A stretch of DNA of 64,000 nt from Arcobacter sp. CECT 8983. Its GTDB lineage: Bacteria; Campylobacterota; Campylobacteria; Campylobacterales; Arcobacteraceae. Shown one piece after another: positions 25,462 through 39,340 of this stretch. The stretch is from the NCBI RefSeq assembly GCF_004118855.1, contig NZ_PDKF01000002.1, positions 124,001 to 188,000 on the forward strand, read 5' to 3'. Both the position numbers and the translations under genes were made by a program. The notes under the pieces were generated by a model. It did no database searches, was not told the DNA's origin, and was given only the letters and a program-made list of their open reading frames with translations. The stretch's first letter is position 1. Each line of letters opens with the position of its first letter.

Positions 25462-25490
25462 TTGACATTTATAAAAAAATAATGTATACT
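25462..25490 (+). promoter_or_regulatory. Near-consensus sigma-70 promoter without an ordinary gene
   Basis: TTGACA at 25462-25467, a 17-base spacer, then TATACT at 25485-25490. A perfect -35 is unusual here because Campylobacterota promoters mostly lack one. The predicted transcript starts near 25497, carries a small hairpin (CTATAT-TTG-ATATAG, 25500-25514), a Shine-Dalgarno AAAGGA at 25543-25548, and only tiny frames, before a strong terminator at 25777-25807. Confidence 0.6.
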
Positions 25491-25776: not shown

Positions 25777-25807
25777 ATAAAAAGAGTGACTAACTCACTC
25801 TTTTTAT
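25777..25807. terminator. Strong bidirectional terminator hairpin
   Basis: A perfect 13-base stem (ATAAAAAGAGTGA / TCACTCTTTTTAT) with a 5-base loop and T5/A5 flanks. It could end the orphan transcript from 25497. Confidence 0.7.
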
Positions 25808-25887
25808 GAGTTACGCAGTTCAAAAAATTATGATAAAACAAGAGGGAAGTCGCTAGACCTTTGGCAACATGGCTGGTTGCTTTTTGC

Positions 25888-25913
25888 GATACTTTTTTCA
25901 ACAAAAAAGTATC
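25888..25913. terminator. Hairpin with CAAC loop, terminator-like
   Basis: A perfect 11-base stem (GATACTTTTTT at 25888-25898, AAAAAAGTATC at 25903-25913) closed by a 4-base loop. The T run is inside the stem and no T tract follows, so termination is uncertain; the stem itself is clear. Confidence 0.45.
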
Positions 25914-26016
25914 ATCCACAAAGGCTTTAGCCTTTATAGTGCTAATATTATTTTGTAACTTGAATGAAACCAAGCCCTAATAAAATTATAATATCAAATA
26001 TAAAAAAGGGTAAATC

Positions 26017-26109
26017 ATGACACTAAAATATGAGAGCGGTTTTTTATTCTTAAGTATGAGTATTAGTTACTTTACAACAGCATATCTAAGTTACTTTTTC
26101 ATATACTAA
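26017..26109 (+). CDS. 30-residue single-span membrane peptide, copy 1
   Basis: ATG at 26017 is preceded by AAAAAGGG seven bases earlier and by TATAAT at 25987-25992. The product (30 residues) has a short polar head with YES at 5-7 and then one hydrophobic segment ending YFFIY. It aligns without gaps over its full length with the peptide at 26199, sharing YES, LFL, the serine, TTA, Y and FIY. Two full-length related frames with good ribosome sites so close together are very unlikely by chance. Function unknown; it could be a small membrane-complex subunit or a type I toxin-like peptide. Confidence 0.7.
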   Translation: MTLKYESGFLFLSMSISYFTTAYLSYFFIY

Positions 26110-26198
26110 CGGAATAACTGAATACTTAATAGACATTTTTTTACTACCAAAGTATACAAAAACAGTGTAAACTGTTATATATAATCAAAGGAGAAATT

Positions 26199-26291
26199 AT
26201 GGAAACAAGATACGAAAGTCAAGTTTTATTTCTAGGATTATCATTAGTTTATTATACTACGGCATTAGCAACATATATTTTTATTTATTAG
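26199..26291 (+). CDS. 30-residue single-span membrane peptide, copy 2
   Basis: ATG at 26199 follows a perfect AAAGGAG by five bases. The 30-residue product begins METRYESQVLFL and ends TYIFIY; about half of its residues match copy 1 at 26017 without gaps. One membrane helix (about residues 8-29) is predicted by eye, with a charged N-terminus probably in the cytoplasm. A small inverted repeat AACAGT-GTAA-ACTGTT (26161-26176) sits just upstream beside AT-rich -10-like sequence. Its last 11 bases overlap the end of the convergent GGDEF/EAL gene. Confidence 0.75.
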   Translation: METRYESQVLFLGLSLVYYTTALATYIFIY

Positions 26292-28650
26292 TACTTATAT
26301 TTTCTATTCTTTCAGGTTTTGCAAAATAGTAACCTTGGAATAGTTTACAACCTAAATTTACTAAAAATTTATATTGCTCTTTAGTTTCTACACCTTCAGC
26401 AACTACTTGCAAGTTTAAAGCTTCTGCAAATAAAAGTATGCTTTTAACAATAGCTTCATCAGCTTTATTTTCCAATATATTACTTACAAAAGACCTATCT
26501 ATTTTGATTTGATTTAAAGGTAACTCTCTTAGATATTGTAAAGAAGAGTAGCCAGTTCCAAAATCATCTAAAGATACTTGAACCCCTAGTTTTTTTATTT
26601 TAAGCATTTTATCTTTTACTTCTTCAAGGCTTTTTGCAAGAATAGATTCTGTTAATTCTACTTTTAGAAGATTTGCATTTACTTTATACTGTTTTATATA
26701 CATTTTGATTGTATCAATAAAATCCTCTTCTAGAAACTGTTTTGCACTAATATTAATAGCAATGACCCAATTTGATGTTTCTTTAGCTTTTTGCCATGTT
26801 TCTAGCTGTTTACAGGCAGTTTTTATAACCCATGAGCCAATAGGAATAATCAATCCAGTCTTTTCAGCAATTGGAATAAAACTATCAGGGGGAATAATAC
26901 CTTCCTCAGGGTGTATCCATCTAATTAATGCTTCTGCTCCATATACATGATTTTCATCATCATATTGTAGTTGATAAAATAATTCAAAATGCTCCTCATC
27001 AATTGCTTTTATAAGTTGTGAATATGTATCAAGATGATTTTGTGCCATATTTTGTGCTTGTTTATCAAAATAAGAGAATCTTTTTTCCTCTTTTTTTGCT
27101 TGATGTAAAGCAGAGTCTGCTTGTTTTAATAGTTCATTTGCACCTTTACAGTTTTTATTATAAATTGATAATCCAGCATAGACCATAGGATTTATAGTTT
27201 TATCTTCTATTTTTATTTCTTCGGATAAAGTATTTACTAAGAACTCTGCTAAAAGCTTGGCTTCAATGGAAGCTTGGTTTTTGTGTTCATGAATATGTGG
27301 AAACCAAACTGCAAATTCATCTCCTGTTACTCTAGCTATCATTGAAGCATCATTAAATATTTTTTTTGTTTTTAAAGTAATTGCTTCGAGTACTTTATCT
27401 CCTATGCTATATCCATAGGCATCATTAATAATTTTAAAGTCTCTTAAATCAAAACAAATAAGTAATCCCCATCTAAACTGTTGTTTTTTATTTAGATGTG
27501 TTTGTATCTCATTTAAAAGCATTTCTTTGTTTGCTAATCCAGTTAAAGAATCATACTGTTTTAGGTACTCAACTTTTGCTTCTGTCTCTTTTTGTATTGT
27601 TAAATCAATAAAAGATGCCACATAATAAATTACATTTAAATCATCATCTAAAACAGCTTGAATTGTAAGGTGTTCTGGATAGATTGTTCCATCTTTATGT
27701 TTGTTGTATATTTCACCACTCCAGTGATTGTATTTGTGTAATTTTTTTTTCATCTCTTTATAGAAATTTTCATCTTGATATCCAGATCTTAAAATACTAG
27801 GAGTTTTCCCTATAACTTCCTCTTTTTCATATCCAGAAATTTTAGTAAAGGCTTTATTTACTTGAAGAATTATCTCATTTGCGTCTGTAATCATCATTCC
27901 ACTTCTTGTCTCAAAAGCAGCAGCAGCTATTTTTTCAACTTTCTGTGAATTTTCTATCCTTTGAAGCATATAGTTTATTTCATCATAAAGTTTACCTATT
28001 TCATTATCTTCTTTAGTCTTAGCCCTGTTTTTTAAAGAATCAATAATATCAATCTTACTTAAAAAAGATACTAACTTTAAGATAGGTTCTGTAAATCTTT
28101 TTGCAAAGAAGTTAGCAAGGACAAAAGATAAAAGAAGTAAAACTAAAGAAATAGTTATTAAAATAGGAATATCTCTTTTTACAATATCTGATAAGTTTTT
28201 TACTTTGAAGTTTAATTCTACAACCCCTAGTTTAGTACCTTGATATCTAGCATCAGCATAAAGTTTTAAAAGATTGTCTTTTATGTCATTTACTTTTTTA
28301 TAATCATTAGGTAAAGGCTTTACTTCAAGGTCTTTATTATTTTTGTTGTATTGGAAGATAGCTTTATTATCTAATTTATATAGAATCATTGAATCAATAT
28401 TATCAAAAGATTTTAACTTACTTGTTATATCAGCTGCAACGGCTATTTCTTTTAATAAAACAAGTTTCGCAATATCTTGACTTAGTATTTTTGCAACTGT
28501 TCTTGAAAGCTCAATAGTTTTTGTTTGTTGAGACTTCATATTCCAGTAAACAAAACTAGAATATCCAACTATACCAGTTATTAAAGTAACCAGTAAAATC
28601 ATTAAAGTTAGTCTTCTTTTTATTGAACCTCTGTAGTGTTTTTTTGTCAT
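26281..28650 (-). CDS. Membrane PAS-GGDEF-EAL cyclic-di-GMP signalling protein
   Basis: 789 residues. Helices near 13-32 and 163-185 flank a periplasmic sensor. A HAMP-like linker, PAS (about 245-350), GGDEF (about 365-525) and EAL (about 540-780) domains follow. The cyclase signature reads TGDEF instead of GGDEF, which may reduce activity. The phosphodiesterase motifs look complete (AEALIRW, KVELTES, LDDFGTGYSSL, KIDRSF, VAEGVET). It is probably a c-di-GMP phosphodiesterase or bifunctional regulator. The ATG is one base after the rhodanese stop, so they form an operon. Confidence 0.9.
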   Translation of the reverse strand: MTKKHYRGSIKRRLTLMILLVTLITGIVGYSSFVYWNMKSQQTKTIELSRTVAKILSQDIAKLVLLKEIAVAADITSKLKSFDNIDSMILYKLDNKAIFQYNKNNKDLEVKPLPNDYKKVNDIKDNLLKLYADARYQGTKLGVVELNFKVKNLSDIVKRDIPILITISLVLLLLSFVLANFFAKRFTEPILKLVSFLSKIDIIDSLKNRAKTKEDNEIGKLYDEINYMLQRIENSQKVEKIAAAAFETRSGMMITDANEIILQVNKAFTKISGYEKEEVIGKTPSILRSGYQDENFYKEMKKKLHKYNHWSGEIYNKHKDGTIYPEHLTIQAVLDDDLNVIYYVASFIDLTIQKETEAKVEYLKQYDSLTGLANKEMLLNEIQTHLNKKQQFRWGLLICFDLRDFKIINDAYGYSIGDKVLEAITLKTKKIFNDASMIARVTGDEFAVWFPHIHEHKNQASIEAKLLAEFLVNTLSEEIKIEDKTINPMVYAGLSIYNKNCKGANELLKQADSALHQAKKEEKRFSYFDKQAQNMAQNHLDTYSQLIKAIDEEHFELFYQLQYDDENHVYGAEALIRWIHPEEGIIPPDSFIPIAEKTGLIIPIGSWVIKTACKQLETWQKAKETSNWVIAINISAKQFLEEDFIDTIKMYIKQYKVNANLLKVELTESILAKSLEEVKDKMLKIKKLGVQVSLDDFGTGYSSLQYLRELPLNQIKIDRSFVSNILENKADEAIVKSILLFAEALNLQVVAEGVETKEQYKFLVNLGCKLFQGYYFAKPERIENISTNK

Positions 28651-29597: not shown

Positions 29598-30257
29598 TTA
29601 TAACTCTAGCTTATATCCAATGCCTTTTATATTTATAATTGAATCTTTTCCTAAAATCTTTCTTATATTCTTTATATATGTTCTTACTGTGGTATCTGTA
29701 GGGGTATCATCATAAACCCAGTTATTAAGTGCAATTTCTTCTATTGATACTGCTTTATTTGAGTGTTTTAAAAGATATTCAAAAACTTTTGCTTCAGTTT
29801 TTGATAGTTGGAACTTTTTATCTTTTATAAAAATAGTTTTCAAATCATAATCATAAGAAATATCATTATTTATCTTTTGTTCTTCTTTTGATTCTATTTT
29901 TCTTAATCTTTTGATATTATCAATTCTAAGTTTTAATTCACTTAAGTGAAAAGGTTTTCTTATGTAGTCATCAGCTCCTGCATTAAAACCTTTTTCCATA
30001 TCTTTTGTAGTATGTAGTGAAGTTATAAAGATAGTTGGAATATCAATGGAGTTTGATTTTAAATTTTTTAATAAATCAAAACCACTTATTGAAGGTACAT
30101 TTACATCTAAAATAAGTAAATCAAAGTGTTGCTCGTAAATAAGTTCATATGCTTCTTGTCCATCATAGGTAGAGATAACTTCATATTTTAGTTCTTCTAA
30201 AAACTCTTCTATGATTTCATGTAAAAGAGTATCATCTTCTAGTAATAATATTTTCAT
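29598..30257 (-). CDS. OmpR-family response regulator (candidate metal regulator)
   Basis: 219 residues: receiver (EDD near 7-9, phospho-acceptor D in LLILDVNVPS, RKPFH) and winged-helix DNA-binding domain ending KGIGYKLEL. The start is taken at 30257, where GGAG lies six bases before the ATG; an ATG four codons earlier has no ribosome site. It is divergent from the histidine kinase at 30341, with which it must pair. The kinase runs straight into the heavy-metal efflux operon, so a CusR-like role is likely. Confidence 0.9.
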   Translation of the reverse strand: MKILLLEDDTLLHEIIEEFLEELKYEVISTYDGQEAYELIYEQHFDLLILDVNVPSISGFDLLKNLKSNSIDIPTIFITSLHTTKDMEKGFNAGADDYIRKPFHLSELKLRIDNIKRLRKIESKEEQKINNDISYDYDLKTIFIKDKKFQLSKTEAKVFEYLLKHSNKAVSIEEIALNNWVYDDTPTDTTVRTYIKNIRKILGKDSIINIKGIGYKLEL

Positions 30258-30312
30258 TTTAAACTCCATAATAAAGTATATAAATTACACGTGGAAGTTA
30301 TGTGGAAAATGT

Positions 30313-39241: not shown

Positions 39242-39340
39242 TTATTTGTCTTTATTTTTGTAAGATTTAAAAAATCCAATTGCAGAAATTATTGCAACAC
39301 CTGCAATAAATATTAGCATTGCTAAATCAAGAGGTTCCAT
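39242..39340 (-). CDS. 32-residue single-span membrane peptide between rlmN and gltX
   Basis: On the minus strand an ATG at 39340 has AAGGAAA five bases upstream, inside the end of rlmN, and the frame overlaps rlmN by 14 bases before ending 11 bases ahead of gltX. The product starts MEPLDLAMLIFIAGVA, has one hydrophobic helix (about residues 6-24) and ends in the basic tail KSYKNKDK. The overlap, ribosome site and composition all point to a real translated small protein. No function is recognised. Confidence 0.65.
   Translation of the reverse strand: MEPLDLAMLIFIAGVAIISAIGFFKSYKNKDK

Follow-up and report, generated by a model that had tools for sequence, protein, structure and literature searches.

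Tandem 30-codon genes for predicted single-helix membrane peptides in Arcobacter and their relatives downstream of nrdAB

The tandem pair in the window

The window analyzed here is a stretch of 64 kb from the genome of Arcobacter sp. CECT 8983 (G000). Two short open reading frames were found in tandem on its forward strand. ORF1 (26017-26109, +; ATG at 26017, stop codon ending at 26109) encodes a peptide of 30 aa, MTLKYESGFLFLSMSISYFTTAYLSYFFIY, that is identical in the related genomes G063 and G062, and is preceded by a Shine-Dalgarno-like AAGGG (26006-26010, +) conserved in relatives. ORF2 (26199-26291, +; ATG at 26199, stop codon ending at 26291) also encodes 30 aa, METRYESQVLFLGLSLVYYTTALATYIFIY, with an 87% identical copy in G063, where its Shine-Dalgarno sequence AAAGGAG (26187-26193, +) is kept as well. 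An inverted repeat, AACAGTGTAAACTGTT (26161-26176, +), lies between the two frames and is partly kept in G063, but its function is doubtful. ORF2 runs 11 nt into the 3' end of a convergent PAS-GGDEF-EAL gene (26281-28650, -).

A sequence-only reading of the window had described two 30-codon frames with Shine-Dalgarno sites that could be aligned without gaps, and this description was confirmed. The ungapped alignment showed 53% identity, with YES (residues 5-7), LFL (10-12), TTA (20-22) and a final FIY (28-30) common to both peptides. Apart from itself, ORF2 matched only ORF1 in a tblastn search of the 2.74-Mb genome (E = 2e-4). The best 19-residue hydropathy was 1.2 for ORF1 and 1.6 for ORF2, the net charges were 0 and -1, respectively, and both C-termini were FIY. 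Three ORFs of 24-45 codons in the 64-kb window were intergenic, hydrophobic and equipped with a Shine-Dalgarno sequence, and two of these three were ORF1 and ORF2. Elsewhere in the window, another possible small membrane protein with a Shine-Dalgarno sequence, MEPLDLAMLIFIAGVAIISAIGFFKSYKNKDK (39242-39340, -), was located between two large ORFs resembling, by eye, a radical-SAM rRNA methyltransferase and a glutamyl-tRNA synthetase; it had no NCBIfam match.

The features that the sequence-only reading had placed around the pair fared less well. The best sigma70 match, probably the one meant by an "orphan promoter" beside the pair, is located at 25462-25490, more than 500 nt upstream, and promoter matches in the region were not above those in shuffled sequences (11 versus 10.5). 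As for strong hairpins nearby, the region is indeed hairpin-rich, but part of it consists of sequence that recurs in the intergenic DNA of relatives and is not gene-specific. The recurring hairpin-rich DNA (25777-25914; ATAAAAAGAGTGA...TCACTCTTTTTAT and GATACTTTTTTCAACAAAAAAGTATC) gives spurious minus-strand ORFs and looks like a dispersed repeat.

Distribution, coding evidence and evolution of the family

Iterated searches recovered 18 copies of the family in 10 of 16 genomes of the same genus: two each in G000, G063, G057 and G061, one each in G062, G056, G058 and G054, and three each in G067 and G068 (copies 1 and 2 of a genome are denoted by _1 and _2). All members were 29-34 codons long, and each had a purine-rich, Shine-Dalgarno-like stretch upstream. 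The family motif was [KR]YE...LF...S..YY..A...Y, and the consensus was MxxKYExxILFxxxSxxYYxxAFxxYxxVx. Among 16 aligned members, Y5 and Y26 were invariant, K/R4 and E6 were near-invariant, and S15, Y18 and Y19 were constrained. No further convincing member was found in the 104 genomes of the bacterial family or in draws of 399 genomes from the order and 397 from the phylum, and known members of the peptide family are to date confined to a single genus of Campylobacterota. Several weak profile matches were rejected: those in G034, G098 and G065 (C194) were antisense to a conserved large ORF, the one in G336 (E = 9e-4) lay antisense to a 928-residue ORF and lacked a start codon, and those in G065 (C164), G021 and G073 had no usable start or overlapped larger ORFs. 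In the six non-carriers, the nrdAB-side regions, which in G065 covered 6 kb to the contig end, showed neither a copy nor a remnant of one. Since 6 of the 16 genus members carry no recognizable copy, the function is dispensable.

No significant match to the family was obtained in Pfam, NCBIfam, PHROGs, PADLOC-DB, PDB, PLSDB plasmids or a phage collection; the best PHROG match (E = 0.03) was to a PHROG without assigned function. Among the open-library papers naming Arcobacter together with a small membrane protein, none dealt with this family, judged by titles and abstract openings. Judged by sequence, the family is new, and it is of a kind already known, the bacterial small single-transmembrane proteins.

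The sequence-only reading had proposed comparing synonymous and nonsynonymous changes among relatives. In this comparison, ORF1 differed from its G063 counterpart by 11 synonymous and 0 nonsynonymous changes and from its G062 counterpart by 8 and 0. ORF1 contains about 16 synonymous sites in 90, and the probability that 11 of 11 changes would be silent without selection on the protein was near 7e-9, well beyond chance. The codon comparison thus places ORF1 among small proteins defined as ORFs of ≤50 aa with protein-level selection, and its product is, by this measure, under strong purifying selection. ORF2 and its G063 orthologue showed five differences, one synonymous and four nonsynonymous; because these are so few, the dN/dS of ORF2 is by itself uninformative on coding, and its coding status therefore rests on similarity to the family. 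The orthologue pairs in G067/G068 had pN/pS values of 0.08-0.34. Stops or frameshifts in homologous relatives, which had been named as a refuting result, were present in none of the 18 copies collected, and six genus members were without the genes. The family, the ORF1 codon test and the predicted helix support the earlier description of the pair as tandem, related, protein-coding single-helix peptides, and on this evidence ORF1 and ORF2 are real paralogous genes.

The silent divergence of ORF2 from G063 (1 of 20 sites) was far below that of ORF1 (11 of 16 sites), located 90 nt away. This may reflect the small number of sites, recombination or constraint at the RNA level.

The copies are located downstream of nrdAB, beyond a variable stretch, as singles or tandem pairs whose surrounding genes vary; in G067 and G068 a third copy is dispersed elsewhere in the genome. 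In G000, G063, G062, G056 and G058 the copies end against a convergent PAS-GGDEF-EAL gene (identified by domain search), the 3' end of which is overlapped by ORF2 or the single copy by about 11-29 nt, whereas other genes lie beyond the copies in G054, G057, G061, G067 and G068. In G062, ORF2 and the spacer are missing, with a clean junction at similar 3' ends. In a family tree based on 30 sites and with low support, copy 1 of G057, G067 and G068 grouped together and the second copies of G000 and G063 formed a separate lineage; from this placement, duplication probably occurred more than once.

Other one-helix peptides were encountered in this part of the genomes. A second family, "TN" (...SLITVGVLTNGMLIYTFF...; L054:7435-7539, -; L056:8185-8289, -; L071:9591-9686, -), faces the KYE pair convergently in both G067 and G068, whereas the non-carrier G066 has it alone; it had no family match. 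In addition, one-helix short ORFs with Shine-Dalgarno sequences were located downstream of nrdB in non-carriers (L069:3331-3444, +, MSNTTRTEESKTLRNYTIFTVIFSATIVSGFFLVLVK; L071:2278-2388, +, MKDNIPIEEYEIKSYTIQVVFTLTAVTIGLFWILTI). These two are perhaps mutually related and had no Pfam match.

Predicted helix and upstream element

AlphaFold2 run on the alignment of ORF1 and ORF2 (A1) predicted one helix spanning residues 2-29 with a mean pLDDT of 87, and with the hydropathy values given above each peptide is predicted to have a single hydrophobic helix. Conservation was periodic with the helix (100 degrees per residue; a modest p = 0.035 from column shuffles, uncorrected for the relatedness of the sequences), and F11, S15, Y18/Y19, A22, Y26 and I29 fell on one side of it. 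In this model the conserved side would be a packing surface for another protein or for a second copy of the peptide. With its N-terminal K/R and no charged residue at the C-terminus, the helix would probably adopt an N-in/C-out orientation.

A promoter-like element was found upstream of ORF1 (25955-25986, +), consisting of a direct repeat with an 11-bp period, GTAAC-TTGAAT-GAAAC, followed after 10 nt by the -10-like hexamer TAAAAT; it is a putative promoter. The general pattern, GTWAY-N6-GAAAY-N10-TAAAAT, was matched exactly, spacing included, upstream of G063_1, G056, G058 and G057_2, and near-matches were found upstream of G062, G067_2, G068_2, G061_2 and G054. Much of the DNA further upstream of the element is strongly diverged between G000 and G063. 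Where copies are in tandem in G057, G061, G067 and G068, the element lies between copies 1 and 2, and copy 2 there therefore probably has its own promoter. In a search of the genome, 25955-25986 was the sole zero-mismatch site, so no regulon was visible; six sites had two mismatches, versus four in the control.

The arrangement is similar to PHO-box-type direct repeats bound by OmpR/PhoB regulators (PMC4415409) in that half-sites 11 bp apart stand just upstream of a -10-like hexamer, but the half-site sequences differ. An OmpR-family response regulator (Response_reg and Trans_reg_C domains) is encoded at 29598-30269 (-), about 3.5 kb from the element, and its link to the element is a guess. 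In the sister genomes, the EAL gene is likewise accompanied by the two-component system encoded near the pair, and relatives of both parts of this system occur in the corresponding region of G061. Near the remaining carriers no such system was found, and this regulator is therefore a candidate only.

Possible roles of the peptides

The explanation we favor, with our confidence about evenly divided for and against it, is that ORF1 and ORF2 encode accessory or regulatory helices for a larger inner-membrane protein. The products would be 30-residue single-pass inner-membrane proteins, each inserted as one helix. The conserved face (F11, S15, Y18/Y19, A22, Y26, I29) would pack on the larger membrane protein and alter its activity, assembly or stability, as with CydX, AcrZ and similar helices. 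ORF1 and its single-copy relatives would be expressed from their own promoter at 25955-25986, perhaps switched by an activator binding the direct repeat, and tandem duplication, divergence and loss would provide a set of slightly varied helices suited to different conditions or partners. The sequence-only reading had mentioned small subunits of membrane complexes among the possibilities; the conserved helical face and the purifying selection agree with this, but no partner emerged, and the presence of copies does not match that of heme-copper oxidases or cytochrome bd. No partner gene was found: the flanking genes vary from genome to genome, and neither CydB nor COX1 shares the distribution of the copies. 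Homo-oligomerization would give the same conserved face, which counts against the accessory-helix reading. The six genus members without copies and the modest periodicity value also weigh against it. A self-associating membrane peptide made under stress, similar to YohP, is a clearly less probable explanation: the peptides would oligomerize through the conserved face and alter membrane or energy state, with no dedicated partner. The single face of small and aromatic residues with roughly heptad spacing, the stand-alone genes with a conserved and possibly regulated upstream element, and the tandem copies, which raise dosage, fit this explanation. However, simple oligomerization would not need residues as specific as the invariant Y5, E6 and Y26, and the regulation is putative. 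In E. coli, the small stress membrane proteins of the YohP type (PMC7549839, PMC12719787) likewise have about 27-30 aa, one helix and a stand-alone gene, but there is no recognized sequence similarity.

The other explanations fit the data less well. The sequence-only reading had also put forward type I toxins. In a toxin-antitoxin module of this type, each peptide would serve as a membrane toxin and an antisense RNA would silence its mRNA. In size, in the single helix, in tandem duplication and in their patchy occurrence, the peptides do resemble AapA1 and ZorO (29-30 aa; ZorO is also tandemly duplicated; PMC8309996). The low silent divergence of ORF2 (1 of 20 sites) is what RNA-level constraint would give, and between the ORFs there is a weak promoter match on the minus strand (26178-26151). 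Basic C-terminal residues are common, not universal, in type I toxins; unlike AapA1 and ZorO, the pair has no basic C-terminus, with neither a C-terminal Lys/Arg nor a net charge other than 0 or -1. The proposed search for an antisense RNA, run as a promoter scan of the region, gave minus-strand matches at chance level only, with promoter matches equal to shuffles. The mRNA folded no better than shuffles (z = +0.6), the Shine-Dalgarno sequence of ORF1 was unpaired in both the minimum-energy and centroid folds, with no RBS-masking structure found, and an Rfam-type search of the window returned one tRNA only and no match at the pair. Moreover, the ORF1 protein was perfectly conserved while its DNA drifted (0 amino-acid versus 8-11 silent changes), the opposite of RNA constraint. 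The toxin reading is weakened by these results to an unlikely one, and the pair looks more like accessory helices than toxins.

A small subunit of a terminal oxidase, like CydX/CydY/CioY or the helix at the N-terminus of cytochrome oxidase subunit II, is less probable still. Such helices are abundant in oxidases, and the G058 member gave a sub-threshold match to Pfam COX2-transmemb (PF09125; E = 0.085, 13.1 bits versus a cut-off of 25), but this was 1 of 16 members and within chance for 16 queries. Of the 10 carriers, 7 had cydB, as did 2 of the 6 non-carriers, and the mismatches run in both directions: CydB was missing in the carriers G056, G057 and G061 and present in the non-carriers G055 and G064. 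A COX1-family protein is present in all of the genomes, with or without copies, and the single COX1-family match in G054, G063, G067 and G068 is of a kind that non-carriers also have. The bd-oxidase peptides CydX and CydY (CioY) (PMC4325964, PMC11955535) are similar to the present family in length (about 30-37 aa), in having one transmembrane helix with few conserved residues, and in having been found through searches of intergenic DNA, in the same phylum. In contrast, the present copies lie away from cydAB and outside oxidase operons, are distributed independently of CydB and are repeatedly duplicated, and the Trp common to CydX/Y/Z at the start of the helix (PMC4325964) is absent from all 16 aligned members. 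COX2-like and cytochrome bd identities were dropped on the distribution among carriers and non-carriers, by which the oxidase-subunit reading is largely refuted. A leader ORF, whose translation would regulate a neighboring gene while the peptide itself is irrelevant, is the least probable of all; the ORFs are short and intergenic, but the downstream gene is convergent in this clade, family copies have unrelated neighbors, and the ORF1 protein is itself strongly selected.

Small membrane proteins are systematically missed by annotation, and the pair represents very short genes of that sort, in which codon-level selection alone identifies a 30-residue gene, ORF1. The family provides a profile usable by annotators. 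With orthologues, paralogues and presence or absence within one genus, it is a compact case of how one-helix proteins arise, duplicate and find partners. In a fuller and clearly less probable form, the accessory-helix reading describes a genus-restricted, duplicating one-helix family with its own conserved promoter switch that modulates a specific membrane protein. If this is true, then, together with the "TN" peptides of G066, G067 and G068 and the other short ORFs, the stretch after nrdAB would be a region in which small membrane proteins originate and turn over.
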